A DNA stretch of 64,000 nucleotides from NCBI GenBank assembly GCA_028280565.1, contig JANQLQ010000167.1, positions 1-64,000 of the forward strand, in the 5' to 3' direction. Of the stretch, positions 23,701-63,834 are shown in pieces; the stretch's first letter is position 1, and each line of letters opens with the position of its first letter. The notes under the pieces were generated by a model, which was not told the DNA's origin, ran no database searches, and saw only the letters and a program-made list of their open reading frames with translations. Source of the stretch: Fulvivirga sp. GTDB taxonomy: Bacteria > Bacteroidota > Bacteroidia > Cytophagales > Cyclobacteriaceae. The translations under genes were made by a program, and so were the position numbers.

Positions 23701-23821
23701 TCAAATAAACCGATCTATGAATAATAGTGGTACGCCCCGGTTAAAACGTATTACAAATACGAAATCATAGTTTTACCAAGGCCCAGGACTCGTGTCGCCG
23801 GGGCTTAAAACCGGGTCGTGT

Positions 23822-29015: not shown

Positions 29016-29118
29016 ATAGACAATATAAAGCGAAACAAAATTAACCTAAGAGCAAAAACGATCAAAAAACGCTAATTTTCACTTCTCAATAAAGTTATTT
29101 TAGGTTAGCGCTTTAGAT

Positions 29119-30312: not shown

Positions 30313-30335
30313 ACCCATAATTCAATGATACTGAT

Positions 30336-31715: not shown

Positions 31716-31731
31716 AACCCATCATTTCGCT

Positions 31732-33063: not shown

Positions 33064-33073
33064 TGTAACATTT

Positions 33074-33107
33074 ACCGGCGATTCTCTCTTGTAGGTGTTT
33101 CGCCGGT
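33074..33107 (+). promoter_or_regulatory. Intercistronic hairpin
   Basis: ACCGGCGA (33074-33081) pairs perfectly with TCGCCGGT (33100-33107) across an 18-base loop, 10 bp after the oxidoreductase stop. There is no following T-run, so this looks more like an mRNA processing or stability element than a terminator. Confidence 0.4.
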
Positions 33108-33133
33108 TATAAATTAAGGTGGGGAGCTTTGCG

Positions 33134-34768: not shown

Positions 34769-34816
34769 TTCAAACCAAATGGTCACCTGGATATGCTTTT
34801 TGAAAAAAACTTCAAC

Positions 34817-46621: not shown

Positions 46622-48070
46622 ATGCTTAAATATAGTTTCACGGCCGTATGCATAACGATTTTACTTTCATGCAGCACCACTTCCGAACCTCAAAGAGGAT
46701 TCACTACCGAAACGGCAAAGCAGTTGGAAGCAGAGGGATGGCAACAGGTGCCTGGCATCTTGAGCCGGATCAAACCCCCGCAATTTCCTGCCAGCACATT
46801 CAATATCAAAGATTTCGGCGCTGAAGGTGACTCCATCACCAATGATCTTCCAGCGATTATGAAAGCCATTGACGCCTGCTCTAAGGCGGGTGGTGGTAAG
46901 GTGCTGATCCCGGCTGGCCAATACTTCATTAAGGGTCCTATCCACCTAGAAAGTAATATTAACCTCCACATTCAAGAAGGAGCACGGATCTTTTTTAGTC
47001 AACAGCCTAAAGACTACTTGCCCGCCGTAAAAGTGCGCTGGGAGGGAACCGTATGTTACAACTATTCCCCGCTTATTTATGGTTACCAATTAAAAAATAT
47101 TGCCATCACGGGGAAAGGCATGATTGATGGCGCCGCTCGCGAATGGTCCATGGAATGGCGCAAGGTCCAAAAACCGGATAAAGACCGGCTTCGGCAAATG
47201 GGCAATGATACTATCCCCGAAGTCCAAAGAGTATTTGCAGAAGGTTTCCTAGACCTGGACGGTGATGGTCAAGATGATGGATATGGCGACGGACAGCAGC
47301 ATTATTTGAGGCCTACACTTATTGAATTATACGAGTGCGAAAATATACTACTTGAGGATTTCAGTATTAAAGAAAGTCCCTTCTGGACCGTTCACCCCGT
47401 TTTTAGCAAGAACATAACCGTACGTAATTTGACCATCTATGGCGCTGTTTTGAATGACGACGGGGTGGACCCGGACAGCTGTGAAGATGTATTGATAGAA
47501 GGCTGCGAGATACAGACCCGGGATGATGCGATTTCTATTAAGGCCGGGAGAGATCAAGACGCTTGGAACAGGCCGGGAAGCAAAAACATTGTGGTTAGGA
47601 ACAACCGCTTGTTAAGCGGGGCAAATGCCCTGTGCATAGGCTCGGAAATGTCCGGTGGGGTAAGCCATGTTTTTGCAGAAAACAACTACATCGCAAACGG
47701 CCAGCACGCCCTTAATTTCAAATGCAACTTGGACAGGGGCGGCCAGGTGGAAAAAGTCTATTTACGAAATACCGAAATTGAATCGTGTGGTAAGGCCATG
47801 TTCATTTTCAGGATGGATTACCATGGATACCGTGGAAACCACTTCCCTACTAAGTTCAATGACTTTTATGTATCCGGTATCCGTTGCAAAAATGTTGAGC
47901 AAAAACCTTTTAAAATCGTCGGTGTGCAGGATCAGTTCATCACACGTGTGTATCTTAATGACATTACCATAGATAAGGCCGGGGAAGAAAGCCAGTTTGA
48001 ATACGCTGACGATCTCGTCTTTTCCAGTGTAACTATCAATGGTAAACCTATACAGTATGAGCCGAATTAA
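46622..48070 (+). CDS. GH28 polygalacturonase-like lipoprotein 1
   Basis: A 482-residue lipoprotein (MLKYSFTAVCITILLSC, Cys at 17) with the parallel beta-helix of GH28. The usual NTD motif reads N278-D-D280, followed by D301-D302 in TRDDAISIKAG; these fit the three catalytic Asp. The later GHG motif reads IGSEMSGG, as in many Bacteroidota exo-type or rhamnogalacturonan-active members. It removes galacturonate residues from pectin-like chains. It overlaps the sulfatase gene by 14 bp, so the two act on the same, perhaps sulfated, polymer. Confidence 0.88.
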   Translation: MLKYSFTAVCITILLSCSTTSEPQRGFTTETAKQLEAEGWQQVPGILSRIKPPQFPASTFNIKDFGAEGDSITNDLPAIMKAIDACSKAGGGKVLIPAGQYFIKGPIHLESNINLHIQEGARIFFSQQPKDYLPAVKVRWEGTVCYNYSPLIYGYQLKNIAITGKGMIDGAAREWSMEWRKVQKPDKDRLRQMGNDTIPEVQRVFAEGFLDLDGDGQDDGYGDGQQHYLRPTLIELYECENILLEDFSIKESPFWTVHPVFSKNITVRNLTIYGAVLNDDGVDPDSCEDVLIEGCEIQTRDDAISIKAGRDQDAWNRPGSKNIVVRNNRLLSGANALCIGSEMSGGVSHVFAENNYIANGQHALNFKCNLDRGGQVEKVYLRNTEIESCGKAMFIFRMDYHGYRGNHFPTKFNDFYVSGIRCKNVEQKPFKIVGVQDQFITRVYLNDITIDKAGEESQFEYADDLVFSSVTINGKPIQYEPN

Positions 48071-49628
48071 TTTCCTCGGCGTCTTCGCATGCCTGCTGGT
48101 TCTGGCCGGCGGCTGTGATCCGTCATCACACGAAGAAGCAACACAAAAGAGTAAAACTGATATTGTCGTTATTTTAGCGGACGACCTGGGTTTTTCTGAT
48201 CTCGGTTGCTACGGAAGTGAGATCCGCACCCCGAACCTGGACAGCTTAGCCTATGGAGGGGTACGCTTTTCAAATTTTTATAACAATGCCAAGTGCAGTC
48301 CCAGCCGGGCCGCATTACTTACCGGGATGTACCCTCATAAAGCAGGGATAGGCCGGGTGGTATCACTTTTAGGAAAACCTCTAAAAAATGGTCCTTACCA
48401 AGGATACTTGTCGGACAGCACCAAAACCATTGCAGAATGGCTCAAAACTGCGGGGTATACAACCGCTATGTCGGGCAAATGGCATATAGGGGAACGCAGG
48501 CAACATTGGCCTAAAAAGCGTGGGTTTGATCGCTATTTCGGGCTTATCAGCGGTGCAAGCAGCTATTACGAGGTGATCAAGGACCAGCCCAGGACCCGGC
48601 AAATGGTGCTGGAAGACAGCCTGTGGAGCCCTCCCAGTGACTTTTATATGACTGACGCTATCACCGACTATGCCGTCGATTTTATTAAAGACCAAGACCA
48701 AGCGGACCCTTACTTCATTTACGTGGCCTACACTGCGCCGCATTGGCCCTTACATGCCCCCCGTGAAGACATCGAAAAATACAAAGGAATGTACCGAGGA
48801 GGCTGGGACAGTTTACGAACCTCAAGGCTTCAAGGGCTTATCCATGAAAAAATATTGACTGGCGATCAGCAGCTATCTCCTCGATTATCTTCTATTCCTC
48901 CTTGGGATTCAGTAGAAGATAAAACCTTTTGGACAGACCGTATGGAAGTGCATGCCGCTATGATCGACCGCATGGACCAGGGCATAGGGAAGATCATACA
49001 GGCCATCAAAGCCAGGGGCAACTTCGAAAATACCCTCGTAGTATTTTTATCTGATAATGGCGGCAGCGCCGAAAATATTACCGGGAGAGGATTGAATGAT
49101 CCTACTGTGCCGGTCGGAGACAAGGGTTCTTATGTAGCCTACCGTGAGCCTTGGGCACTAGCATCCAGCACGCCATGGCAACGTTATAAACTGTGGTTGA
49201 ACGAGGGAGGTATTTCCACGCCCATGGTCGCTCATTGGCCGTCTTACATAAAAAATAAAGGGGATGTATTGCACTACCCTGCCCAGCTTATGGACATTTT
49301 GCCCACCCTCTTGGATATCGAGGGGATCACCCCAACAGGTACACCAGGACGCTGGAAAAGCCCAGACGGTGTTTCCCTGCTTCCTGTCTTCACCGGTGAG
49401 ATGAAGGAAAGAGACTCACCCATATTCTGGGAATACAATCACCAAAAGGTGGTTCGCGCAAATAACTGGAAGATCTTAGCCTATAAAGATCAGCCTTGGA
49501 GGCTTTTCGACCTGGCCCGGGACAGGATAGAATCACGTGACCTATCGGGAAGCCACCCGGAATTAGTCGACAGCCTGGCCTCAATTTATACCCAGTGGGC
49601 ACGAAGTATGAACATCCCAGGACAATAA
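48057..49628 (+). CDS. Sulfatase (arylsulfatase-type), lipoprotein
   Basis: A 523-residue S1-family sulfatase lipoprotein (lipobox LAGGC, Cys at 17). The formylglycine site is Cys80 in CSPSRAALLTGMYP. Metal ligands are visible in DIVVILADDLGFSDLG and VVFLSDNGGSAEN, with the SGKWHIGERRQHWPKKRGF region conserved. It removes sulfate esters from carbohydrates, needing a maturation enzyme (anSME or FGE) encoded elsewhere. Coupled to GH28 by a 14-bp overlap. The ATG at 48057 starts the signal. Confidence 0.9.
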   Translation: MSRINFLGVFACLLVLAGGCDPSSHEEATQKSKTDIVVILADDLGFSDLGCYGSEIRTPNLDSLAYGGVRFSNFYNNAKCSPSRAALLTGMYPHKAGIGRVVSLLGKPLKNGPYQGYLSDSTKTIAEWLKTAGYTTAMSGKWHIGERRQHWPKKRGFDRYFGLISGASSYYEVIKDQPRTRQMVLEDSLWSPPSDFYMTDAITDYAVDFIKDQDQADPYFIYVAYTAPHWPLHAPREDIEKYKGMYRGGWDSLRTSRLQGLIHEKILTGDQQLSPRLSSIPPWDSVEDKTFWTDRMEVHAAMIDRMDQGIGKIIQAIKARGNFENTLVVFLSDNGGSAENITGRGLNDPTVPVGDKGSYVAYREPWALASSTPWQRYKLWLNEGGISTPMVAHWPSYIKNKGDVLHYPAQLMDILPTLLDIEGITPTGTPGRWKSPDGVSLLPVFTGEMKERDSPIFWEYNHQKVVRANNWKILAYKDQPWRLFDLARDRIESRDLSGSHPELVDSLASIYTQWARSMNIPGQ

Positions 49629-50480: not shown

Positions 50481-51299
50481 ATGGAGTCTTCTCTTTTTAA
50501 CGTCGAGGACAAGGTAATTGCCATTACAGGTGGTGGCGGCATTTTAGGCAATGCTATGGCAGAGGCCCTTGCAGGGGCTGGGGCTAAGATAGCCTTACTG
50601 GATAGGGATCCCAATGGCGCCGATACACTTTTAAGCAAGGCGCAACAAAACGGCTGGACAGTCAAAGCCTACAAAACCGATGTTCTTGATGAGCAAATCA
50701 TAAAAAAAACCTTCGACGAGGTCATTACCGACTTTCAAAAGGTAGACGTACTGATCAACGCCGCCGGTGGGAACATGCCCGGGGCCACGGTAGGGCCTGA
50801 TCAGAGCGTATTGGACCTTTCCATTAGTGAGATTCGCAAAGTACTGGAACTTAACTATTTAGGTACGGTTATTCCTACACAGGCTCTATTGACCCATATG
50901 ATAGAAAATAAGGCTGGCAATATCATTAATATTTCTTCGATGTCTGCCCAGACCCCATTGACCCGGGTTATGGGATATTCTTCGTCCAAAGCGGCTATAG
51001 ACAATTACACGAAGTGGATGGCTGTAGAGCTAGCAGGTAAGTTTGGTGAAGGGTTCCGTGTAAACGCCCTGGCCCCAGGTTTTTTCTTAACAAAACAGAA
51101 TGAAGCCCTTCTCACCCAAGCAGACGGGTCATTGACAGATCGAGGAAGGACGATCATTGAACACACCCCTTTTAAACGTTTTGGTACGCCTGGTGAATTG
51201 GCAGGCACCTTGATCTGGCTGATCTCGGACGCTTCCAAGTTCGTAACAGGAGCTATCGTGCCTATAGATGGTGGTTTTAATGCATTTAGTGGTGTATAA
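50481..51299 (+). CDS. SDR-family D-mannonate/fructuronate oxidoreductase
   Basis: A 272-residue short-chain dehydrogenase. NAD(P)-binding glycines are in IAITGGGGILGNAMAEAL, NAAGG near residue 94, the catalytic Ser in NIISSMSA-like INISSMSA, and Tyr-x-x-x-Lys in GYSSSKAA. It fits the YjmF-type family that replaces UxuB in Firmicutes and Bacteroidota and reduces fructuronate to mannonate. No UxaB is present, so it might also serve tagaturonate. It opens the uronate operon, 3 bp before uxuA. Confidence 0.88.
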   Translation: MESSLFNVEDKVIAITGGGGILGNAMAEALAGAGAKIALLDRDPNGADTLLSKAQQNGWTVKAYKTDVLDEQIIKKTFDEVITDFQKVDVLINAAGGNMPGATVGPDQSVLDLSISEIRKVLELNYLGTVIPTQALLTHMIENKAGNIINISSMSAQTPLTRVMGYSSSKAAIDNYTKWMAVELAGKFGEGFRVNALAPGFFLTKQNEALLTQADGSLTDRGRTIIEHTPFKRFGTPGELAGTLIWLISDASKFVTGAIVPIDGGFNAFSGV

Positions 51300-51302
51300 T
51301 TT

Positions 51303-52490
51303 ATGAGTTTTATTCAAACCATGCGGTGGTACGGTCCGAAAGACCCGGTGAAGCTAAGCCATATACGACAGGCAGGAGCTACGGGTGTGGTTACCGCCCT
51401 GCATCATATCCCTAACGGTGAGCCTTGGGAACTACAAGAGATCCAAAAACGGAATCAAGAAATACAGGCCGCCGGTCTTAGCTGGGAGGTGGTAGAAAGT
51501 GTGCCTGTGCATGAGGATATCAAAACACGACAAGGTGATTTCCGAAAGTATATCCAAAGCTACCAGCAGTCCTTACGCAACTTAGGAAAAGAAGGGATCA
51601 AAACCGTGTGTTACAATTTCATGCCCGTGCTGGACTGGACACGGACTGACCTGGACTACGGTTTACCCAACGGTGCCAAAGCTCTGCGCTACGACAAATT
51701 GGCGATGATGGCCTTTGATTTCTTCATCCTAAAGCGGGAAAGCGACGGCTACCCCGCCGAGGAAATTGAAAAGGCTAAGAATTACATCGAAAGCATCGAT
51801 GATGCTGTGAAAGAACGCCTTGTAAAAAATATCATTGCAGGTCTGCCCGGGTCGGAAGAGTCATACACGGTTGCGGATTTCAAGAACAAACTGGCGGCTT
51901 ACCAAGATGTCGACGCCACCGCGCTGAGAGCTAATATTGTCGAGTTTCTCAAAGAAGTGGTCCCTGTGGCGGAAGAATCGGGGGTAAACCTGGCCATCCA
52001 TCCTGATGATCCTCCCTTTTCTTTGTTTGGGTTACCAAGGGTAGTAAGTACCGCTGGTGATGCCAGGCACCTTTTTGACCAAGTAACCTCGCCGGCTAAT
52101 GGCCTCACTTTCTGCACCGGCTCTTTTGGTGTAAGAGCAGACAACGATCTTCCCACTATGGTAAAAGAATTTGGCAGCAGGATACACTTTGTTCACCTTA
52201 GGAGTACAACCCGGGACACACAAGGCAATTTTTTTGAAGCGGATCATCTCGCAGGCGATGTAGATATGTACGAGGTAGTAAAAGCGCTGCTGGAGGAGAT
52301 GAGCGCCAGGAAAAGCCATGGAAAGGCGGGTCAGCACATCCCGATGAGACCTGATCACGGTCACCAAATGATGGATGACCTGGAAAAAATCACTAACCCC
52401 GGGTATTCGGGGATCGGCCGGCTGAAAGGGCTCGCAGAAATACGAGGCCTGGAAATGGGAATAAAAAGAGCATTACAATTAGACGCATAG
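51303..52490 (+). CDS. uxuA: Mannonate dehydratase
   Basis: A 395-residue UxuA: D-mannonate to 2-keto-3-deoxygluconate (KDG). It starts [24 protein letters not shown] as in E. coli UxuA, and has [17 protein letters not shown] and [10 protein letters not shown] with metal-binding His and Asp residues, and [12 protein letters not shown] near the end. It has the normal length for the family (about 394). Cytosolic, with iron or manganese as cofactor. The gene starts 3 bp after the SDR gene and 10 bp before uxaC. Confidence 0.95.
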
Positions 52491-52500
52491 AAATAATCAC

Positions 52501-53919
52501 ATGGAAGTTAAAAATATACCCATCAAAAAATTCCTAGGCCCCAACTTCTTACTAGAAAATGAGGTGGCTGAAGAGCTATACCATGAGTTCGCTAAGGATA
52601 TGCCTATCATTGATTACCACTGCCACCTTCCACCGGCAGACTTGGCCAATGACCGGCAGTTCAACAATCTTACAGAAATTTGGCTGGAAGGTGATCATTA
52701 TAAGTGGAGAGCGATGCGCGCCAACGGTGTCGACGAGAAATACATCACGGGCGACGGCTCTGCGGAAGAAAAGTTCTACAAATGGGCTGAAACTGTTCCC
52801 CATACCCTGCTGAATCCATTATATCACTGGACCCACCTGGAATTAAGAAGGTATTTTGATATTAACGAGCTATTGAATCCTAGCACGGCGGTGGAGATAT
52901 ACAACGAAGCCAATACCCAGCTCATGGAGCCTGGCTTCAGTTGCAGGAATATCCTCAGGAAGATGAATGTGAAGGTGGTTTGTACTACGGATGATCCCGT
53001 AGACACATTGGAACATCACTTACTGCTTAGCCAGCAGTACGAAATCAAAGTATTACCTACTTTCAGGCCTGATAAAGCTTATGCCGTTGAAAACGAGGAG
53101 GTTTATGTTAAATACATCGAGCAGCTTTCTGATGCCTCTGGCATCACCATCAACTCTTATGATACCCTTCTCAATGCACTGGAAAACCGCATAGCCCATT
53201 TTAATGACGCTGGTTGCCGTTTATCGGATCATGGACTTGAGCAATTGTATTTTGAAAACGTGACTGCTGCCGAGGTTCAAAAAATATTTCTGAAAGTACT
53301 CGGAGGCCAAGCCCTGGCGCAACCTGAAGTACACAAATTTAAATGCGCTGTGCTGCTGGAACTATGTAAGCTATACCATAAGTACGGGTGGACCCAGCAA
53401 TTCCACCTGGGAGCACTAAGAAATAACAATGACAGGATGATGCGACAATTGGGGCCTGACACAGGTTTTGATTCCATCGGAGATTTTAGCCAGGCCTCGT
53501 CGCTTTCCTCTTTCCTGGACCAGCTAGATACTACGGACCAGCTATCACAAACCATTCTTTATAACCTTAACCCCGGCGATAACGAAGTGATTGCCACTAT
53601 GATCGGAAATTTCAACGACGGTTCCGTGGCGGGTAAAGTCCAGTTTGGGTCAGGGTGGTGGTTCTTAGACCAAAAAGATGGAATGACAAGACAAATGATT
53701 GCCTTGTCGAATATGGGATTGCTTAGTAGATTTGTTGGGATGCTCACGGACTCTCGTAGCTTTATGTCCTACCCAAGACATGAATATTTTCGAAGGATAC
53801 TTTGCAACCTATTAGGCAAAGATGTGGTAAATGGTGAGGTCCCATATGACATCGACCTCTTGGGCGATATGGTGAAAAACATATGCTACAACAATGCTAA
53901 AGACTATTTCAAATTTTAA
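52501..53919 (+). CDS. uxaC: Uronate isomerase
   Basis: A 472-residue UxaC, an amidohydrolase-superfamily isomerase that converts galacturonate to tagaturonate and glucuronate to fructuronate. The metal/active-site motif is PIIDYHCHLPPADLANDRQF, and it has the expected VKVVCTTDDPVDTLEHH, QFHLGALRNNNDRMM and GSGWWFLDQKDGMTRQ. Length matches E. coli UxaC (470). It is the first enzyme for both uronates entering this locus. Confidence 0.96.
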   Translation: MEVKNIPIKKFLGPNFLLENEVAEELYHEFAKDMPIIDYHCHLPPADLANDRQFNNLTEIWLEGDHYKWRAMRANGVDEKYITGDGSAEEKFYKWAETVPHTLLNPLYHWTHLELRRYFDINELLNPSTAVEIYNEANTQLMEPGFSCRNILRKMNVKVVCTTDDPVDTLEHHLLLSQQYEIKVLPTFRPDKAYAVENEEVYVKYIEQLSDASGITINSYDTLLNALENRIAHFNDAGCRLSDHGLEQLYFENVTAAEVQKIFLKVLGGQALAQPEVHKFKCAVLLELCKLYHKYGWTQQFHLGALRNNNDRMMRQLGPDTGFDSIGDFSQASSLSSFLDQLDTTDQLSQTILYNLNPGDNEVIATMIGNFNDGSVAGKVQFGSGWWFLDQKDGMTRQMIALSNMGLLSRFVGMLTDSRSFMSYPRHEYFRRILCNLLGKDVVNGEVPYDIDLLGDMVKNICYNNAKDYFKF

Positions 53920-53934
53920 CCACAGATCAAATAA

Positions 53935-54972
53935 ATGAAAAAAGTAGTTACTTTCGGTGAGATCATGCTACGGCTAGCACCCCCGGGATTCCTAAGATTC
54001 TCTCAAACGAACTCTTTTGATGCTATCTACGGTGGCGGAGAATCGAATGTGGCCGTTTCCCTGGCCAATTACGGTCTGCCCGTTGACTTCGTGACACGAC
54101 TCCCGGATAACGATATAGGCCGCTGTGCCCTGATGGAGATGAGAAAACGAGGAGTAAATACCGATCATATCCTGTTTGGAGGTGAGCGGTTGGGCATATA
54201 TTTCCTTGAAACAGGAGCAGTGAGCCGCGGAAGCAAAGTGGTGTATGACCGGGCGCATTCTGCCATTTCTACCATAGAAAAAGGCATGATAGACTGGGAG
54301 GAAGTGTTTAAAGACGCCCAGTGGTTCCACTGGACAGGCATCACTCCTGCCATCTCGCAGGGTGCCGCTGATGTCTGCCTGGAAGCAGTACAAGCTGCCA
54401 GCCAGTTGGGTATCACCATTTCTACCGATTTAAATTATCGAAAGAAACTCTGGAAATATGGCAAACAACCGGGAGATATTATGCCGGCATTAGTAGAGCA
54501 CTGTGATATTATCTTGGGTAACGAGGAAGATGCTGAAAAGCACTTTGGCATCCACCCGGAAACCGTAGATGTGACACAAGGCGATTCTATGGATGCCCAA
54601 GCATACCGATCCGTTTGTGTGAAGCTTACGGAAATGTTTCCCAAGGCCAAAAAAGTGATCACCACCCTTCGTGGGTCCATCAGTGCCTCGCATAACACCT
54701 GGTCCGGTGTGCTTTACAATGGCACAGAATTCTTAGAAGCTCCTACCTACCAGATCACACATATCGTGGACCGCGTAGGAGGTGGAGATTCTTTTATGGG
54801 GGGACTCATCTACGGATTGATCCATTACCCTAGTGACGATCAAAAAGCGCTGAACTACGCCGTAGCAGCATCATGCCTGAAACACACCATTTATGGCGAT
54901 GCTAACCAGGTCACCATAGATGAGGTAGAGAAGTTGATGAGCGGAGATGCCTCGGGCCGTGTAGCTCGTTGA
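53935..54972 (+). CDS. kdgK: 2-keto-3-deoxygluconate kinase
   Basis: A 345-residue PfkB-family sugar kinase: KDG + ATP to KDPG. N-terminal signature GGGESNVAVSLANYGL, the LNYRKKLWKYG-type substrate loop, VITTLRGS and the C-terminal catalytic motif DRVGGGDSFMGGL with the base Asp. It follows uxaC by 15 bp. A second, more divergent copy is encoded at 58686, downstream of the transporter. Both proteins share the WFHWTGITPA segment, so they stem from a duplication; this one keeps the NEEDAE phosphosugar-kinase motif. Confidence 0.9.
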   Translation: MKKVVTFGEIMLRLAPPGFLRFSQTNSFDAIYGGGESNVAVSLANYGLPVDFVTRLPDNDIGRCALMEMRKRGVNTDHILFGGERLGIYFLETGAVSRGSKVVYDRAHSAISTIEKGMIDWEEVFKDAQWFHWTGITPAISQGAADVCLEAVQAASQLGITISTDLNYRKKLWKYGKQPGDIMPALVEHCDIILGNEEDAEKHFGIHPETVDVTQGDSMDAQAYRSVCVKLTEMFPKAKKVITTLRGSISASHNTWSGVLYNGTEFLEAPTYQITHIVDRVGGGDSFMGGLIYGLIHYPSDDQKALNYAVAASCLKHTIYGDANQVTIDEVEKLMSGDASGRVAR

Positions 54973-55222: not shown

Positions 55223-55891
55223 ATGTCAAAATTCACGAGGATACAAGTAGCCTTAGCCATGCAAAATACGGGGTTGGTCCCTGTATTTTATCATGCTGAT
55301 GTAGAAGTGAGTAAAAAAGTAGTAAAAGCGTGTTACGATGGAGGTGTTCGGGTATTTGAATTCACTAACCGTGGAGACTTTGCCCACGAAGTTTTTAATG
55401 AGTTAAATAAATACTGCAGGGAAGAACTACCGGAAATGATCATGGGAGTAGGCTCTGTGATCGATGCCGCCACTACCAGTCTATATCTACAGCTAGGCGC
55501 TAATTTTATTGTTTCCCCTATCATGAAAGAGGAGATGGCCTTGGTATGTAACCGGAGGAAAGTACTTTGGTCACCGGGTTGCGGCTCACTTACGGAGATC
55601 TCGCGTGCTGAAGAGTTGGGTGCCGAGATCGTTAAGATCTTCCCGGGATCACAAGTCGGCGGACCGGGGTTTGTAAAAGCTATCAAAGGACCTTTTCCTT
55701 GGACCAGTATTATGCCTACGGGTGGCGTAGAACCCACGGAAGAAAACCTCACAAAATGGTTTGAGGCAGGAGTTACCTGTGTGGGCATGGGCTCCAAGTT
55801 AATCACAAAAGACATTCTCCAGGAAGATAAGTACGATCAACTGACGGAAACGGTAAAAAATGCCCTCGCGATCATTCAAAAAGTAAAATGA
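55223..55891 (+). CDS. eda: KDPG aldolase
   Basis: A 222-residue class I aldolase: 2-keto-3-deoxy-6-phosphogluconate to pyruvate and glyceraldehyde-3-phosphate, the last step of the pathway. The Schiff-base lysine is K138 in EIVKIFPGSQVG; substrate-binding parts are FEFTNRGD and SIMPTGGVEPTEEN. Length is normal for the family (about 213 in E. coli). It overlaps the dctP gene by 4 bp (ATGA), tying the transporter to the catabolic operon. Confidence 0.93.
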   Translation: MSKFTRIQVALAMQNTGLVPVFYHADVEVSKKVVKACYDGGVRVFEFTNRGDFAHEVFNELNKYCREELPEMIMGVGSVIDAATTSLYLQLGANFIVSPIMKEEMALVCNRRKVLWSPGCGSLTEISRAEELGAEIVKIFPGSQVGGPGFVKAIKGPFPWTSIMPTGGVEPTEENLTKWFEAGVTCVGMGSKLITKDILQEDKYDQLTETVKNALAIIQKVK

Positions 55892-56898
55892 GCCGGGCCT
55901 TTCTACCATATCTATGTCTTTTCGTACTGTTGATATTCTCACAATGTGCTGAAAAAGACAATGTTCGAATGCTCAGGCTGGCCCATGGGCTGGATGTGAC
56001 CCACCCGGTACACAAAGGCATGGAATTTATGGCGCAAGAGCTTGAAAAGAGGTCCGGAGGGAAGCTTAAAATGACCATTTACCCCAGCGGGCAGCTTGGC
56101 GCCGAGCGAGAGTGTTTAGAGTTGCTGCAGATCGGCAGCTTGGACATGACCAAAGTTTCGGCGTCCGTCATGGAAAACTTTGCGCCGGACTACCAGGTAC
56201 TCAGCTTACCCTATATTTTCAAAGACAGGGAGCATAGCTATGCAGTTTTGGATGGAGAAGTAGGCAACCAGCTCTTAAATGACGGCGAAAAGTATCGTTT
56301 AAAAGGCCTGTGTTTTTATGATGCAGGGAGTCGCAGTTTTTACACAAAAGACCGGCCCATTCTTTCACCGGACGACCTTCGGGGCTTAAAGATCCGGGTA
56401 CAAAAAAGTAAGACTGCCGTGGATATGATAGAACAAATGGGTGGATCGCCTACGCCTATTCCATGGGGAGAGTTGTATACCGCTCTTCAACAAGGGGTGG
56501 TAGACGGCGCCGAAAACAATCCTCCGAGCTTCTTTTTTTCCAGGCACTACGAAGTATGCAAGTATTACACGATCAACGAGCACTCTTCCGTACCTGATGT
56601 GCTTATTGTAGGTACAAGTACGTGGGAAAAGCTTACCGATCAAGAAAGGGAGTGGCTCAAGACATCTGCCATAGAATCGGCAACTTACCAGCGTGTACTC
56701 TGGCAAAAGTCCGAGCAAGAATGCCTTGAAGCCGTAAAAGAAGAAGGAGTAGAGGTGATCTATCCTCCTAAAGAGCCTTTTGCAGAAATGGTAAAAAGTA
56801 TGTACAACGAATACGCGGACCAGCCAAGTGTGACCCGGATCATCGAAAAGATCAGGAACATGCCGGGAGTTTCAAACACAGGGGAGGAGACATTATGA
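55888..56898 (+). CDS. TRAP transporter substrate-binding protein (DctP), lipoprotein
   Basis: A 336-residue DctP-type solute receptor with a lipoprotein signal (MSRAFLPYLCLFVLLIFSQC, Cys at 20). DctP-family features are LKMTIYPSGQLGAERECLELL, the carboxylate-clamp Arg in LKIRVQKSK and VVDGAENNPPSFF. The clamp Arg indicates an acid ligand, and the neighbours point to galacturonate, glucuronate or oligo-uronides. It is translationally coupled to eda before it and to dctQ after it. Confidence 0.92.
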   Translation: MSRAFLPYLCLFVLLIFSQCAEKDNVRMLRLAHGLDVTHPVHKGMEFMAQELEKRSGGKLKMTIYPSGQLGAERECLELLQIGSLDMTKVSASVMENFAPDYQVLSLPYIFKDREHSYAVLDGEVGNQLLNDGEKYRLKGLCFYDAGSRSFYTKDRPILSPDDLRGLKIRVQKSKTAVDMIEQMGGSPTPIPWGELYTALQQGVVDGAENNPPSFFFSRHYEVCKYYTINEHSSVPDVLIVGTSTWEKLTDQEREWLKTSAIESATYQRVLWQKSEQECLEAVKEEGVEVIYPPKEPFAEMVKSMYNEYADQPSVTRIIEKIRNMPGVSNTGEETL

Positions 56899-57383
56899 GA
56901 AAGAAGCTCGATGCGCTCCTAGAGAAAATACTGATCGTACTCATGGTCCTAATGGTGGTAGACGTGGTATGGCAGGTAGCCTCTCGATTGCTATCTAAGT
57001 ACCTGGCAGGTATTATTAGCTTGGCGCCTAGCACATTTACCGATGAGATTGCAGGTTTCCTGCTGATCTGGTTAGGATTACTTGGCGCAGCTTATGCCGC
57101 GGGTAAAGGGCAACACCTGGCCATAGAGTTACTTCCCAACAAGCTAAGCCCACCGAAAAAAAAGAAGCTGGACATTTTCATTAATGTATTGATCGTACTT
57201 TTTGCGGCCTCGGTGATGGTGATAGGCGGGTCTCACCTAGTATACCTGACCTTTTTGTTGGAGCAGCGGTCTGCCAGCCTGGGTATACCTTTAGGCTATA
57301 TCTACACTTGTGTGCCCTTAAGCGGGCTGTTCATCACGGTGTATTCACTTTCCAATATCCGACAACTTACCTTGACAGAATAA
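56895..57383 (+). CDS. TRAP transporter small permease (DctQ)
   Basis: A 162-residue inner-membrane subunit with four helices (about residues 10-35, 50-70, 85-110 and 130-150), including the DctQ-typical DEIAGFLLIWLGLLGAAYAA motif. It pairs with the large subunit to form the sodium-driven channel. The start overlaps dctP by 4 bp, and it lies 1 bp from dctM. Confidence 0.92.
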   Translation: MRKKLDALLEKILIVLMVLMVVDVVWQVASRLLSKYLAGIISLAPSTFTDEIAGFLLIWLGLLGAAYAAGKGQHLAIELLPNKLSPPKKKKLDIFINVLIVLFAASVMVIGGSHLVYLTFLLEQRSASLGIPLGYIYTCVPLSGLFITVYSLSNIRQLTLTE

Positions 57384-57384
57384 A

Positions 57385-58683
57385 ATGGACTTTATTGAAA
57401 TAGGTATACTCGTTTTTTCATTTCTATTTCTACTCTCTATTGGTGTACCCATTGCCTTTAGTATAGGCATTTCATCTTTGTTCACCATGATGGTGAGTAT
57501 TTCTACCTTACCGTCCGTCACTACGCTAGCACAACGTATGGCTACGGCGCTGGATAGTTTTGCACTATTGGCGATTCCCTTTTTCATCTTAGCCGGTCAG
57601 CTTATGAATAGAGGCGGCATTGCCGAGCGGCTTATCGATTTCGCCAAAGTATTGGTAGGAAGGTTGCCCGGTGGATTAGCTTTTGTAAATATATTAGCAT
57701 GCATGCTGTTCGGGGCCATATCCGGTTCAGCGGTGGCCGCAGCTTCAGCCATCGGGGGTTTTATGGTGAACCGTATGGAAAAAGAAGGATACTCTCGCCC
57801 GTTTAGCGCCGCTGTTAACATCACCAGCAGCACTACGGGGTTGATCATCCCTCCTAGTAATATCCTGATCATTTATTCTTTAGCTAGTGGGGGAGCCAGT
57901 ATCGCCGCTTTGTTTGTAGCAGGTTACCTGCCTGGCCTATTAGTAGGATTATTGTTAATGCTAGTCGCAGGGATTTGGGCATATATCAGGAAGTATCCCG
58001 TAGGAGAGGCCATAGGATTAAAGAAGGCGTTGTTCAAGTTTTTAGATGCCTTGCCAAGCCTCCTATTGCTGTTCATTGTTATAGGAGGTATAATCGCCGG
58101 AATTTTTACCGCTACCGAAGCATCAGCTATCGCGGTGGTATACACCCTAGTCCTTTCTATGGTGATCTACAAGCAGGTCACGTTCAAAAACTTACCCAGC
58201 ATCATACTGGAAACGGTCAAGACCACTGCCATTGTAATGCTGCTTATCGGCACCTCTATGGGGATGTCATGGGTCATGTCGTTTGAAAATATCCCACAAG
58301 ATGTCAGCGCCACGCTTCTCAGCATCAGCGACAACGAGATCGTTATTTTGCTGATCATCAACCTGATCCTACTCTTTGTGGGCGTGTTTATGGATATGAC
58401 ACCGGCAGTTTTGATCTTTACCCCTATTTTTCTGCCTATCGTCACTAAAATGGGAATGGACCCCGTACACTTCGGGATCATCATGGTATTGAATTTATGC
58501 ATCGGGTTATGTACTCCCCCTGTAGGCTCAGTCCTTTTCGTGGGGTGCGGCATCGCGGGTACCACTATTGAAAAGGTCATAAAGCCGCTGATCCCACTGT
58601 TCTTAACCATGATCGCTGCGTTATTATTAGTTACCTATTTTCCCGAGATCAGCCTATGGCTACCCGGGGTATTCGGATTGTAG
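57385..58683 (+). CDS. TRAP transporter large permease (DctM)
   Basis: A 432-residue permease with about 12 helices. Conserved DctM segments include IPFFILAGQLMNRGGIAERL, GAISGSAVAAASAIGGFM, PPSNILIIYS and VFMDMTPAVLIFTPIFLPIV. It uses the sodium gradient to move the acid delivered by DctP. It ends 2 bp before the ATG of the second sugar kinase. Confidence 0.94.
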   Translation: MDFIEIGILVFSFLFLLSIGVPIAFSIGISSLFTMMVSISTLPSVTTLAQRMATALDSFALLAIPFFILAGQLMNRGGIAERLIDFAKVLVGRLPGGLAFVNILACMLFGAISGSAVAAASAIGGFMVNRMEKEGYSRPFSAAVNITSSTTGLIIPPSNILIIYSLASGGASIAALFVAGYLPGLLVGLLLMLVAGIWAYIRKYPVGEAIGLKKALFKFLDALPSLLLLFIVIGGIIAGIFTATEASAIAVVYTLVLSMVIYKQVTFKNLPSIILETVKTTAIVMLLIGTSMGMSWVMSFENIPQDVSATLLSISDNEIVILLIINLILLFVGVFMDMTPAVLIFTPIFLPIVTKMGMDPVHFGIIMVLNLCIGLCTPPVGSVLFVGCGIAGTTIEKVIKPLIPLFLTMIAALLLVTYFPEISLWLPGVFGL

Positions 58684-58685
58684 AT

Positions 58686-59705
58686 ATGAAGATCATCACA
58701 TTTGGCGAACTCCTGCTTCGGTTTTCTCCATCACATTACGCCAAGATCAGGGAGCAAGAGCACATGATCATGAACGTAGGCGGGGCGGAAGCTAACGTTG
58801 CCGTCAGCCTGTCTAACATGGGGTTGGATGTCCATTACATCAGTCGTGTCCCGTCCAACGAACTCACCCAGTTTTGCATCCGCGACCTAGCCAAGAACTT
58901 GGTGAAGATCGATCACATGCAATACGGTGGGAAAAGGCTAGGGCTGTATTTCGTCGAGAGTGGCAACTCGGTGCGGTCAGGTAAAGTCATTTACGACCGT
59001 GAGGATTCATCCTTTGCCGAAATAACCCCTGGCATGATCGACTGGGAAGAAGTCATGAAAGGCGCCGATTGGTTCCATTGGACGGGAATAACACCCGCAC
59101 TTTCTCTCGGGGCCGCCTATGCCTGCCAAGAGGCCATACAAAAAGCCAAGGAATTGGGCCTCACCGTTTCCGGTGACCTCAACTATCGGAAAAAACTCTG
59201 GAACTACGAAAAAAAACCGAACCAGATCATTCCCGGTTTTATTGACAAAACAGATGTCTTGGTATGCGACGTCAATAGTTGTGAGATCATGGCCGATGTA
59301 AAGATCAGCAGGAAGGAAGCTCCATATGCTGAACAGCTAGAGGAATGTTTCCAGGCACTGCACAAAAAATACCCGAACCTATCCTTGAGCAGCAGCCTCA
59401 TGCGTGATATCTTGAACCATTCTCACCACTGTATCAAAGGTGCTTTGTACCCTGGCGGGAAGATAACCTATGCCGAGCCACAGGATATCTACCCTGTTAT
59501 CGATCGTATCGGGGGTGGCGATGCTTACATGTCGGGGTTGATCTATGGGCTGATCCATTACAAAGAAGACCTGGAAAAGGTTATCAATTTTGCCACGGCA
59601 ACTTCAGCCCTGAAACATACTATCCAGGGCGATTTTAACTCTTTTTCAGCAGATGAGATCAAAGCCTTGATGGAAGGTGGGAAAAATAAGAACGTAGAAA
59701 GGTGA
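58686..59705 (+). CDS. Second KdgK-like sugar kinase
   Basis: A 339-residue PfkB-family kinase similar to the KdgK at 53935 (shared GGAEANVAVSLSNMGL, MIDWEEV, WFHWTGITPALS, LNYRKKLWNY, and C-terminal DRIGGGDAYMSGLIYGLIHY with the catalytic Asp). It differs where the first copy has NEEDAE and VITTLRGS; here they read VNSCEIM and SSLMRDIL. It may phosphorylate a different 2-keto-3-deoxy sugar acid or be regulatory. The ATG at 58686 was chosen because an upstream start would overlap dctM. Confidence 0.85.
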   Translation: MKIITFGELLLRFSPSHYAKIREQEHMIMNVGGAEANVAVSLSNMGLDVHYISRVPSNELTQFCIRDLAKNLVKIDHMQYGGKRLGLYFVESGNSVRSGKVIYDREDSSFAEITPGMIDWEEVMKGADWFHWTGITPALSLGAAYACQEAIQKAKELGLTVSGDLNYRKKLWNYEKKPNQIIPGFIDKTDVLVCDVNSCEIMADVKISRKEAPYAEQLEECFQALHKKYPNLSLSSSLMRDILNHSHHCIKGALYPGGKITYAEPQDIYPVIDRIGGGDAYMSGLIYGLIHYKEDLEKVINFATATSALKHTIQGDFNSFSADEIKALMEGGKNKNVER

Positions 59706-59806
59706 GTATGGCTCAAAGCTTCACTGATACTTTGACACTTAGTAAGGTGAGGCTATAAGGCGTAGTCAGGGTCAGCCCCTTCCCTGTCCGTCCTCCAAGA
59801 AAAAGT

Positions 59807-61120
59807 ATGAAGCTTATACCAGTAACCATAACGATGGTAGTGAGTGCGCTCCTTTTAGTCCACTGTACTACCAAAGAAGATACGCGCCACACCAGTATTA
59901 AAGACTTCGGGGCTAAGGGAGATAGTCTTACCCTAGATACCAAAGCCATCCAAGACGCACTGGACCATGCCTCGGCGATAGGGGGCACCGTCTATATCCC
60001 TACCGGGACCTACCGGGTAGGTACCTTGCTATGGAAAGAAAATGTTTCTATTCATTTTGAAACGGGCGCTATGCTCGTCGGTAGTACGTCTTTAGAAGAT
60101 TACACAACCGAAAAGAAACCCCTCATCATCGCAGAACGGCTGGATAATGTGAGTATGACCGGGAAGGGCATAATTGATGGAAATGGAGGAGTATTCTGGG
60201 ATGAGAATTTCAAGGCCTTAGAGCGACCGGAGCCGTGGATCATATTAAAAAAATGTCGCAATGTAACCCTTAGGGATGTGAAGTTTCAAAACTCACCCAG
60301 CCACACCATACGTCTTGAGAATAGTGAGGATGTAAAGTTTGACGGGATTTCCATTATCAACCCTTTCAAAGGACCTAACACTGATGGTATTGATATTGTA
60401 GACAGCAAGAATGTACTTATTGCTAACAGCCTGATCAGCACAGGTGACGACGCGATCTGCCTGAAATCACAACGTGATACCGTGGAAAATGTAGTGGTGA
60501 CCAACTGTATCTTAGAAAGTGATGATGCTGCCATTAAATTCGGGACCGGTTCAAAAATAGCCACACGGTTTTGCTCCTTTACCAATACCGTAATAAGAAG
60601 GACACGGTATGGCATCTCGCTTTTTATGCTGGATGGAGGAGTGTTTGAACATAACAATTTCTCTGACCTGGTGATAGAAAATGCTTCACGGCATGAGTAT
60701 CAATACCCCATATTCATTGATATTGATAAGCGCGTACCGGACAGGGAGTATGGCATAGTTAGGGATAACTCTTTCTCCAACCTGAAAATAGTAACTGACG
60801 GTAAAATATTGATATCAGGACACCCAGAAAGTCATATCCGCGACCTGTCTTTCAATAATATTACGATGCACGTTAAAAATGAAGCGGATTTTACCAACGC
60901 CAATAAGCCAAGGGGAAACAAAAACTATCCAAAATTGGAAACAAGTGTTGACCTTTCTTCTCAGCCCGCTCATTTCGTATTAGGATATGCCAAGGGAGTA
61001 CTGCTGGAAGACATCCGGGTGTTCAGTGACGTGAGCAGCGAAAGAAGGGATCTTTTCACACAAGAGGTGGACCAGTTGGACAAGAACAACTTTAAACACA
61101 CAAGTCAATCATGGAAATAA
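59807..61120 (+). CDS. GH28 polygalacturonase-like lipoprotein 2
   Basis: A 437-residue lipoprotein (signal ending LLLVHC, Cys at 20) with GH28 beta-helix repeats. Catalytic Asp candidates are N191-T-D193 (the canonical NTDG motif) and D214-D215 in STGDDAICLK. The GHG motif reads GTGSK and the later R-x-K reads TRYG. Unlike the first GH28 in this locus it keeps the classical NTD. It overlaps the following TIM-barrel gene by 10 bp. Confidence 0.88.
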   Translation: MKLIPVTITMVVSALLLVHCTTKEDTRHTSIKDFGAKGDSLTLDTKAIQDALDHASAIGGTVYIPTGTYRVGTLLWKENVSIHFETGAMLVGSTSLEDYTTEKKPLIIAERLDNVSMTGKGIIDGNGGVFWDENFKALERPEPWIILKKCRNVTLRDVKFQNSPSHTIRLENSEDVKFDGISIINPFKGPNTDGIDIVDSKNVLIANSLISTGDDAICLKSQRDTVENVVVTNCILESDDAAIKFGTGSKIATRFCSFTNTVIRRTRYGISLFMLDGGVFEHNNFSDLVIENASRHEYQYPIFIDIDKRVPDREYGIVRDNSFSNLKIVTDGKILISGHPESHIRDLSFNNITMHVKNEADFTNANKPRGNKNYPKLETSVDLSSQPAHFVLGYAKGVLLEDIRVFSDVSSERRDLFTQEVDQLDKNNFKHTSQSWK

Positions 61121-62178
61121 CAAGAAGGGGCTTTGTACAAAAGGCAGTGCTGGGATCGGCCGCAGTAGGCTTATCTCCCCACCTGGCTTCCTGCGCCGAA
61201 CCGACAGAACGGGATACCGGGAAGATGCTGAATGCCTACTACTTCAGGGCACATATGTATACGATGGTGCCCCGCCAGGTAAAAGAAGATCTTAAATGGA
61301 TGGCGGATATTGGCACTAACGTAGTGTCTGTGGCCATACTGGAGCAAGACCTAAGAGCGGCAGTTGAAAACGTTGAGATCATAGTCCGTGAAGCGAATAA
61401 ACTCGGGATGGAAGTCTTCGCCGTACCTTCACGCTGGGGTGGATTGCTGGCCGGGGCGCCAAAGGTGCCCAGCGTATTCACCATTCAAAATCCACAGACG
61501 TGGCTGGTAAAAGAAAACGGGGACTTTTACAAAGACAAAAATGTAGGGGTACACAGCAGCATCCATTACAACGAGACCCTGGATTTCTTTAAAGAAGCCG
61601 TAGACAAGATCTTTGAGCTATGGAATATAAAAGGCATCGTATGGGACGAGCCGAAGATCTACGATAAAAAGGACTTCTCGGCAGAGGCTAGGAAGAACAT
61701 CAGCAATCTTGATGACATGGAAGAACATAACATGGCCTTCTCTGGCTTTTTTGGTAAGATCAACGAACATATCCGGGAAAAACACCCCGGCAAGATCACG
61801 AACTTGTTTGCTTACGCTAACTGGCGGCAAGAGGTGATCGATGCTATGGCAAAGATCGATCACCTGGATTATTTAGGCTGCGACGGGCGGCCGTGGCCGG
61901 TAGATGCCGGCGGGCAAGTAGAGCAGAGTGGTAAAAACCTGCTAGGCGGGCCGGGCAAGACTTTTATTGAAGCAGCCAAGGCCCATCAAAAGAAAAGCCT
62001 GTTACTTATCGAAAACCATAATATGCCTGCGGAGAACAACGCGCTTATGGATGAATATCTACCGGGGGTGATGGCACTGGCACCGGACCAACTGATCTAC
62101 TATTATTACCCAAGAAACGTGGATAAACCGGCAGAAAATATGGCTATCATTGCTAAACATTTAAAAAACTTCCGATAA
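61111..62178 (+). CDS. Tat-exported putative TIM-barrel lipoprotein, possible new glycosidase
   Basis: A 355-residue protein with a Tat signal (MEITRRGFVQKAVLGSAAVG) and a lipobox-like LASC (Cys at 28). I do not recognise a named family. The order of strands and helices (DLKWMADIGTNVVSVAIL, KLGMEVFAVPSRWGG, IKGIVWDEPKIYD, IDHLDYLGCDGRPW, KSLLLIENHNM, DQLIYYYYPRN) fits a TIM barrel. Glu180 in VWDEP and Glu301 in LIENHN lie 121 residues apart near the ends of what would be strands 4 and 7, where retaining clan GH-A enzymes place acid/base and nucleophile. It sits between GH28 and UxaA. Confidence 0.6.
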   Translation: MEITRRGFVQKAVLGSAAVGLSPHLASCAEPTERDTGKMLNAYYFRAHMYTMVPRQVKEDLKWMADIGTNVVSVAILEQDLRAAVENVEIIVREANKLGMEVFAVPSRWGGLLAGAPKVPSVFTIQNPQTWLVKENGDFYKDKNVGVHSSIHYNETLDFFKEAVDKIFELWNIKGIVWDEPKIYDKKDFSAEARKNISNLDDMEEHNMAFSGFFGKINEHIREKHPGKITNLFAYANWRQEVIDAMAKIDHLDYLGCDGRPWPVDAGGQVEQSGKNLLGGPGKTFIEAAKAHQKKSLLLIENHNMPAENNALMDEYLPGVMALAPDQLIYYYYPRNVDKPAENMAIIAKHLKNFR

Positions 62179-62181
62179 CAA

Positions 62182-63834
62182 ATGGCGCGCAATATCTTAA
62201 AAGTCCATCCCGATGATAACCTGTTGGTCGCGCTACATGACCTGCAAGCCGGGCAAAAAGTAGAGTGGGAAGGCGAGGTTTTGGAAATGACGTCAGACAC
62301 CCCGGCCAAGCATAAATTCTTGACGCATGACGTGAAAACCGGGGACCCCCTGGTCATGTATGGAGTTTTAGTGGGCAAGGCAAAAACGAGTATCCAGCAA
62401 GGTGAGGTAGCTACTATTCAAAATGTAGAGCACGCCACCCAGCAATATACCGTTGAAGAAAAAAAAGTGTCGTGGACCGCACCAGGCGTGTCAAAATTTA
62501 CCGGCAAAACATTTGAAGGTTATCACCGCCCGGACGGGAAAGTGGGCACGGCTAACTACTGGTTGGTCATCCCCTTGGTCTTTTGCGAGAATCGCAACAT
62601 AGAAATGATCCGAAAAGCCATGGTGGAAGAGCTTGGGTATACCTCCGGGCAAGATTACCGGCTGAACGTGCGCCAGTTGGTCAACGAATATCAAAGCGGC
62701 TCAGATGTGGGATCGCTGGTAGCAGGAGATATATTAGTGCCTGCCGAAGAACAAGTACATCACAGGGTATTCCCAAATGTAGACGGGATTAAATTTTTGA
62801 CCCACGATGGAGGCTGCGGGGGTACCCGGCAAGACAGCAACACGTTGTGCGCCTTGCTGGCCGGCTACCTAGACAACCCAAATGTAGCGGGCGCTACCGT
62901 CTTGAGCTTAGGGTGCCAAAATGCACAAGTGCATATCTTGGAAGAAGCCATCAAAAAAATAAATCCGTACTTTGAAAAGCCTTTATTCGTCCTGGGGCAG
63001 CAAGAGAGCAATTCCGAACCGGAATTTATCGCAGAGGCCGTCAAAAAAACTTTCCTAGGACTAGTGGAAGCAAACAAGATCCAACGAAAACCCGCTCCAT
63101 TGAGTAAATTGGTCGTTGGGCTTGAGTGTGGTGGTTCCGACGGTTTTTCGGGTATATCCGCGAACCCCGCCGTGGGTCATTTTTCAGACCTGCTCGTTGC
63201 CCTGGGCGGGTCTGTCATCCTTTCGGAGTTTCCCGAACTGAATGGCGTAGAACAGGAGCTGACGGATCGTTGTGTGGACAAAACGATTGCCGAAAAATTT
63301 GCCACCTTGATGCGTACTTATCATGATAGGGCGATAGAATCGGGCTCCGGGTTTGATGCCAACCCATCGCCGGGCAATATCAAAGATGGCCTCATCACGG
63401 ACGCAATGAAATCTGCTGGCGCAGCTAAAAAAGGAGGTACTTCCCCTATCGTAGATGTATTGGATTACACCGAACAAATAAAGAAACCCGGGTTAAACTT
63501 GCTTTGTACCCCGGGTAATGATGTGGAATCCACAACAGGCCTTGCCGGGTCCGGGGCTTTGTTAACGTTGTTTACCACCGGTTTGGGCACCCCGACGGGT
63601 AACCCGATCAGCCCGGTGATCAAGGTCTCGAGCAATAATAAGCTGGCAGAAAGAATGAACGATATCATTGACATTAACGCCGGTACTATCATCACGGGAG
63701 AAGATACCATTCCTACGAAGGGCGAAGAGATATTGGATTATGTTATAGAGGTGGCCAGCGGCAGGGTAGCGCCTCATTCAGTGCGACTGGCACAAGACGA
63801 CTTCATTCCCTGGAAAAGAGGCATCTCCCTGTAG
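62182..63834 (+). CDS. uxaA: Altronate dehydratase
   Basis: A 550-residue UxaA: D-altronate to KDG. An N-terminal SAF domain (about residues 1-100, ILKVHPDDNLLVALHDL) precedes the large catalytic domain (about 110-550), which shows GYHRPDGKVGTANYWLVIP, FLTHDGGCGGTRQDS, LECGGSDGFSGISANPAVG and CTPGNDVESTTGLAGSGA. Iron-dependent. It is 55 residues longer than E. coli UxaA (495). The stop codon lies inside a 36-bp palindrome. No altronate oxidoreductase (UxaB) is in the window. Confidence 0.94.
   Translation: MARNILKVHPDDNLLVALHDLQAGQKVEWEGEVLEMTSDTPAKHKFLTHDVKTGDPLVMYGVLVGKAKTSIQQGEVATIQNVEHATQQYTVEEKKVSWTAPGVSKFTGKTFEGYHRPDGKVGTANYWLVIPLVFCENRNIEMIRKAMVEELGYTSGQDYRLNVRQLVNEYQSGSDVGSLVAGDILVPAEEQVHHRVFPNVDGIKFLTHDGGCGGTRQDSNTLCALLAGYLDNPNVAGATVLSLGCQNAQVHILEEAIKKINPYFEKPLFVLGQQESNSEPEFIAEAVKKTFLGLVEANKIQRKPAPLSKLVVGLECGGSDGFSGISANPAVGHFSDLLVALGGSVILSEFPELNGVEQELTDRCVDKTIAEKFATLMRTYHDRAIESGSGFDANPSPGNIKDGLITDAMKSAGAAKKGGTSPIVDVLDYTEQIKKPGLNLLCTPGNDVESTTGLAGSGALLTLFTTGLGTPTGNPISPVIKVSSNNKLAERMNDIIDINAGTIITGEDTIPTKGEEILDYVIEVASGRVAPHSVRLAQDDFIPWKRGISL

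Follow-up and report, generated by a model that had tools for sequence, protein, structure and literature searches.

A gene in a uronate operon of Fulvivirga sp. encodes an exported barrel protein that likely cuts a glycosidic bond. The analysis covers 64,000 nucleotides of contig JANQLQ010000167.1 (hereafter the window). Our preferred reading, which we hold as moderately probable, is that the protein is a secreted and, in the window clade, lipid-anchored glycoside-cleaving enzyme. It would form a divergent branch near the GHL10 family that keeps clan GH-A-like positions, and would supply uronates to the TRAP importer of its operon. That its substrate contains galacturonate is close to an even call and is proposed tentatively. 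The preferred reading draws on a predicted barrel whose three best structural matches are Cwp19, on one relative above the GHL10 cut-off of Pfam, on profile comparison, on a DEP motif that falls on the NEP motif of GH42, on the invariant glutamate E180, on conserved gene order and on the glycoside hydrolase (GH) or SusD-type genes found around most family members.

The target is a real gene under purifying selection and part of the uronate operon. The open reading frame of the original prediction holds as proposed, including its strand, start codon and length (Table 1). Its pN/pS is 0.11 relative to the L002 orthologue (85% identity) and 0.15 relative to the L003 orthologue (79% identity), with synonymous sites saturated. 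No terminator-like site was found in 59500-62400, against a mean of 3.2 in shuffles, and a search at E up to 0.001 recovers one copy in the window's own genome. The operon reads UxuB-type reductase, UxuA, UxaC, kinase-like gene, KDPG aldolase, TRAP genes, second kinase-like gene, GH28, target and dehydratase. The exact names of the two kinases, the dehydratase and the small TRAP permease rest on context, because the first three score below equivalog cut-offs and the small permease has no match. The target had been described as locked between the GH28 gene and uxaA; this link is conserved, the order GH28-target-uxaA being kept in all three close genomes (those of the window, L002 and L003). Of the spacings given earlier, the 10-bp overlap with the GH28 gene stands, and the gap to uxaA is corrected from 4 bases to 3, the figure of 4 being the mere difference between coordinates.

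Two diverged KDG-kinase-like PfkB genes (53935-54972 and 58656-59705) flank the aldolase and TRAP genes within this one operon. Just upstream of the operon, at 46622-49628, a sulfatase gene (2.8e-60) overlaps another GH28 gene (Pfam 1.8e-23), a pair that hints at a different possible substrate, a sulfated polymer containing uronate. Further away in the window, a cluster at 26646-36679 comprises an enolase-superfamily gene, a WD40 gene, a MocA oxidoreductase, a 3-keto-disaccharide hydrolase and a cytochrome c/GSDH gene. Three of these genes resemble neighbours of the paralogue in L036, and no paralogue of the target was found within the cluster. A GH42-like gene at 23792-26077 carries a trimerisation domain.

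Table 1. Positions of the operon genes and of the target's sequence features in the window
Feature	Position	Strand	Basis
D-mannonate oxidoreductase (UxuB-type SDR)	50481..51299	+	NF006132 358.4 bits, cut-off 281
UxuA mannonate dehydratase	51303..52490	+	TIGR00695 above cut-off
UxaC uronate isomerase	52501..53919	+	NF002794 above cut-off
PfkB sugar kinase, KDG-kinase-like	53935..54972	+	Below equivalog cut-offs
KDPG aldolase	55223..55891	+	NF005499 above cut-off
TRAP transporter: DctP-type binding protein, small and large permease	55888..58683	+	TRAP_S1 and dctM above cut-off; small permease by position only
Second PfkB gene, KDG-kinase-like	58656..59705	+	Below equivalog cut-offs
GH28 polygalacturonase-type protein; 10-bp overlap with target	59807..61120	+	Pfam PF00295 1.1e-28
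Target gene, exported barrel protein, divergent GHL10/GH-A-like	61111..62178	+	355 aa, ATG start; sequence, AlphaFold model, Foldseek
Signal peptide region, residues 1-27, Arg5-Arg6 (Tat-like)	61111..61191	+	Sequence; NCBIfam TAT below cut-off; low pLDDT 1-31
Cys28, lipobox LAS-C, putative lipid anchor	61192..61194	+	Sequence
Glu78, after strand 2	61342..61344	+	Invariant in 14/14 rows
Arg108, after strand 3	61432..61434	+	Arg in 12/14 rows; Gly in L016, L022
W178-D179-E180-P181, at/after end of strand 4; E180 proposed acid/base	61642..61653	+	E180 invariant in 14/14 rows
Glu301, after strand 7; proposed nucleophile in window clade	62011..62013	+	Glu in 10/14 rows
Altronate/galactarate dehydratase family (UxaA-type)	62182..63834	+	Pfam GD_AH_C 4.1e-96; NCBIfam galactarate dehydratase 271.6 bits, below 730.85 cut-off

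The original prediction also gave the protein a Tat lipoprotein signal. For the window protein the twin arginine and the lipobox cysteine are indeed present, within a start (TRRGFVQ) that scores 12.3 bits on NCBIfam TIGR01409, under the 16.7 cut-off. Arg5-Arg6 is invariant across a six-row alignment (A1), and TatC is encoded in the window's genome. The leader Cys recurs in L002 and L003, and also in L020 and L025, whose leader has no RR. In the 14-row alignment it is absent from L004, L005, L027, L019, G133, L015 and L017, and the SIS-type relatives L016 and L022 have no comparable leader. Judging from these alignments, export is common in the family core, and neither Tat export nor lipid anchoring is family-wide.

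Relatives of the target are rare and patchy. In 395 genomes of the phylum, a single-protein search (E up to 0.001) matched four, two with family members (the window's own and G133) and two without, and a 14-row profile (E up to 1e-8) recovered three (G000, G133 and G385). Seven of 291 genomes of the order were matched, five by family members (G000, G457, G539, G564 and G632); three genomes in this sample that belong to the genus of the window gave no family match. Nine of 300 genomes of G397's order (two with family members, G397 and G951) and two of 98 genomes of G133's class (one with a family member) were matched as well. These counts are not summed because the genome samples overlap. A contig scan gave four loci, whose genomes then yielded three further copies, L015, L016 and L017; no relative was found in plasmids and viral contigs.

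Eleven weak matches were set aside as GHL10-type (L007, L023, L024, L028-L034 and L071; by Pfam GHL10 for L023 and L028, by eye for the other nine), as were L008, a xylose-isomerase-like Tat protein, and L010, a glycogen synthase, both by eye. L018 corresponds to the second half of L017. L021 and L026 denote one 225-aa copy of G457 (L044:8177-8854) in which the central part of the barrel is missing, likely a decayed gene or an assembly fault; it was kept out of the 14-row alignment and the locus counts. L016:1441-2484, L022:1474-2520 and a third SIS-type relative, L070, which was entered in the tree only, form a sister group that has the WDEP motif and no strand-7 Glu. L016 and L022 have no signal leader and lie next to a SIS-domain gene, and this group is possibly a cytoplasmic enzyme.

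The protein had been called unassigned, and so it proved in the databases searched. Pfam gave the window protein no family at E up to 5, the gathering score of GHL10 (PF02638) not being reached, and sequence-only searches returned nothing in Pfam, PADLOC or PDB and the sub-threshold Tat signal alone in NCBIfam. A six-row profile found no match among PDB sequences, nor did L016 and L017 as queries. Among the 14 aligned family members, only L020 exceeds the gathering score of GHL10 (30.7 vs 27.9 bits); L015 (24.7 bits) and L025 (20.9 bits) fall below it, and 11 have no GHL10 match in Pfam. Further sub-cut-off matches link L027 to Melibiase and, weakly, L017 to GH31.

Profile comparison with hhalign gave the family 97.9% to GHL10 (over about strands 2-5), 97.1% to GH42 and 15.1% to a GH31 control, and 97.9, 96.3 and 8.4, respectively, with the two SIS-type rows left out. 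The GHL10 value is biased because the GHL10 alignment (A4) was assembled from matches of the family's own searches, and one of the seven rows of the GH42 control (L063) is a wrong 64-aa frame. Since GH42 scores nearly as high, this comparison cannot choose between GHL10 and clan GH-A. The independent evidence for GHL10 consists of the Pfam score of L020 and the match of the structural model to Cwp19.

Two AlphaFold models were built, from 6 sequences (pLDDT 73) and from 14 sequences (pLDDT 84.9, pTM 0.84). The second predicts, with good confidence, an eight-stranded alpha/beta barrel, with strands at 39-44, 71-77, 101-107, 175-179, 229-235, 254-260, 295-300 and 327-331 and low pLDDT over residues 1-31. 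Foldseek places Cwp19 chains at ranks 1-3 in the PDB for this model (3.8e-13, 5.4e-13 and 4.2e-12, with modest TM-scores of 0.61-0.63) and the best other match at 1.7e-9; almost all of its best 50 matches are glycoside hydrolases. The first model matched assorted glycoside hydrolases, and Cwp19 was not among its best 50. Cwp19 (PDB 5oq2, 5oq3) is the solved representative of GHL10 (DUF187, PF02638). The barrel claimed originally therefore stands, given eight strands and Cwp19 as the three best PDB matches. The family sits near both GHL10 and clan GH-A, with GHL10 nearer by structure, and the target would represent a divergent branch near GHL10, to which L020 and the Cwp19 match both point. We do not file the target as a GHL10 member because the Pfam test failed and its strand-7 residue is unlike that of Cwp19; a GHL10/GH-A-like mode of action is better supported than membership.

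Invariant across the 14 rows are Y44, D60, M64, E78, A95, G115, G175, W178, E180, P181 and D253. The translation confirms the two glutamates named at the outset, E180 within VWDEP and E301 within LIENHN, and in the second model they directly follow the strands 175-179 and 295-300. In clan GH-A, an Asn precedes the acid/base Glu. The window protein has the strand-4 and strand-7 Glu of this clan, with D179 at the place of that Asn; residue 179 is His in G133. In the profile alignment GH42 NEP is aligned to DEP, with a three-residue gap just ahead. GHL10 has a conserved Arg after strand 3 (Arg132 in Cwp19); R108 lies opposite the Arg within NPYRA of the GHL10 sequences in one alignment and one place off in another. 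Residue 301 is Gln in G133, Lys in L015, Gln in L016 and Met in L022. Since these are two core and two SIS-linked relatives, the family as a whole does not share a two-Glu retaining mechanism, and we rejected E180 and E301 as a family-wide catalytic pair. The two-Glu clan GH-A mechanism originally proposed is thus narrowed to the window clade, where the modelled positions make it plausible. There, E301 takes the site that is Gly328 in Cwp19 (structure paper PMC5765458), and the clade looks more clan GH-A-like at this position than Cwp19. Because 6 of 12 inner branches of the tree are open, the loss of E301 cannot be placed on it.

We covered 14 loci, some of them shortened by contig ends. GH28-like genes occur at five: next door to the target in the window, L002 and L003, in G951 (one by Pfam, 1.2e-10, and one by BLAST, with an esterase-like gene adjoining the relative) and at the second G539 copy (where BLAST finds a fragment that has no Pfam match, together with GH95 and, by BLAST, a sulfatase). 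The other nine have none within the stretch covered. L004 and L005 lie near SusD, GH2-like, FGE-sulfatase-domain and GH42 or GH31 genes. The G564 locus has a GH67-like gene (Pfam 1.4e-7) and, by BLAST, sulfatase-like and GH42-like genes. An enolase-superfamily gene adjoins the G133 and L015 relatives, with a GH2 gene further away; a SIS-domain gene adjoins L016 (Pfam) and L022 (by eye), with SusD further away. L019 adjoins a MocA-type gene and L017 lies near an AP_endonuc_2 gene and, by eye, small-molecule catabolic genes, with no GH seen at either locus. Of the 14 family members, 12 have a GH, GH-like or SusD-type gene in the vicinity and only five a GH28-like gene, so a polysaccharide role is well supported by gene context, while galacturonan is a tentative substrate. 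We rejected the idea that E301 tracks glycan clusters: relatives without it also lie in such clusters (GH2 at G133 and L015, SusD at L016 and L022), so its loss is unexplained by context.

More speculatively, and with some doubt, the relatives could constitute a hitherto undescribed family of glycoside hydrolases that forms a bridge between GHL10 and clan GH-A, with a GHL10-like fold and sequence and, in most members, the classical Glu pair that is absent from GHL10. Some would have given up the strand-7 Glu, two of them beside enolase-type dehydratases, and the Fulvivirga protein would free uronic acids from a pectin-like chain whose breakdown GH28 cannot complete by itself. No paper on the family was found, by title or abstract start, among the matches listed from the open-licence PMC literature; one listed paper (PMC10113389) deals with carbohydrate enzymes of Fulvivirga.

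In the mechanism that we favour, the protein would be exported by Tat and lipid-anchored through Cys28, and a uronic-acid-containing oligosaccharide, a product or leftover of GH28, would bind at the C-terminal mouth of the barrel. E180 would protonate the leaving group and, in the window clade, E301 would serve as nucleophile for a retaining cut. The freed uronate may then be imported by the TRAP transporter and degraded by UxaC, UxuA/UxuB/UxaA, kinase and aldolase, all encoded in the operon. Weighing against this explanation are the missing Pfam match of the window protein and of GHL10 in most relatives, the four non-Glu residues at position 301 despite nearby GH2 or SusD genes, Asp for the clan GH-A Asn, the modest TM-scores, the absence of Cwp19 from the best 50 matches of the first model, the minority of loci with GH28-like genes and the sub-cut-off Melibiase and GH31 matches.

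An alternative is a GHL10-type enzyme with E180 as single catalytic acid and no strand-7 nucleophile, lytic-transglycosylase-like or substrate-assisted, in which E301 would only bind substrate. Cwp19 is the best structural match and has reported lytic transglycosylase activity (PMC6016235) and a Gly for the strand-7 Glu (PMC5765458); E180 alone of the two glutamates never varies, and GH2 or SusD genes are also found near the relatives that lack E301. However, position 301 is Glu in each of the five members that have a GH28-like gene in the vicinity, which hints at selection there, and no operon gene points to peptidoglycan; we regard this alternative as unlikely. An accessory, non-catalytic barrel that binds sugar and passes it to GH28 or the TRAP binding protein would fit the tight coupling of the target to GH28 and the change of E301 to Gln or Lys in two core relatives, but the invariance of E180, E78 and D253 and the strong purifying selection argue for a retained active site and make this quite improbable. 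Least probable is a non-hydrolase barrel, for example a lyase or epimerase with oxidised sugars or sugar acids as substrates. Several relatives lie beside MocA oxidoreductases (as in L039), enolase-superfamily dehydratases (the MR_MLE neighbours of G133 and L015) or xylose-isomerase-like genes (AP_endonuc_2 at the L017 locus), and the weak match L008, xylose-isomerase-like by eye, covers residues 4-102 at E 9.6e-4, but no member scanned matches AP_endonuc_2 (xylose-isomerase-like) in Pfam and the best 50 Foldseek matches of each model are almost all glycoside hydrolases.

The glycoside-cleaving enzyme that we prefer makes the target a specific, testable candidate for the step between extracellular polygalacturonase and TRAP uronate import in Bacteroidota. 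It shares with its GH28 neighbour an operon and presumably a substrate pool. The GH28 fold is a beta helix, and the neighbour has a Pfam Beta_helix match, a fold unrelated to the target barrel. GH42 beta-galactosidase (PF02449, clan GH-A) resembles the target in the profile match and in the alignment of DEP on NEP; the GH42 structure 1kwg is among the best 50 Foldseek matches of both models, and GH42-type genes lie near L004 and in L040, the latter recognised by a BLAST comparison with the GH42 gene of the window. Unlike GH42, the target has 355 aa without a trimerisation domain and Asp for Asn before the acid/base, and its strand-7 half aligns poorly.

DigH is another GHL10-type glycosyl hydrolase. 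A passage of PMC12288456 gave no catalytic-residue information. DogH, a GHL10 protein, is described in PMC9967864 as hydrolysing starch, cellobiose and melibiose with two Glu and a retaining mechanism. PMC5765458 gives Asp196 after strand 4 of Cwp19 as the likely key residue, Asn160 as the GH42 Asn before the acid/base and Gly328 at the strand-7 Glu site of GH42, GH5 and PgaB, and leaves the GHL10 catalytic residues open. The two-Glu claim for DogH sits badly with the Cwp19 Gly, so the GHL10 mechanism is unsettled. Since relatives of the target either have or lack the strand-7 Glu, they allow the residues that GHL10-like enzymes require to be tested directly. Cwp19 and the target share a barrel with an acidic residue after strand 4; they differ in motif (FDDY-type in GHL10, WDEP in the target), in the strand-7 residue (Gly328 vs Glu) and in setting, a cell wall for GHL10/Cwp19 as opposed to a uronate operon for a protein that the Pfam GHL10 model misses. 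The target thereby ties GHL10 to the well-understood families of clan GH-A.
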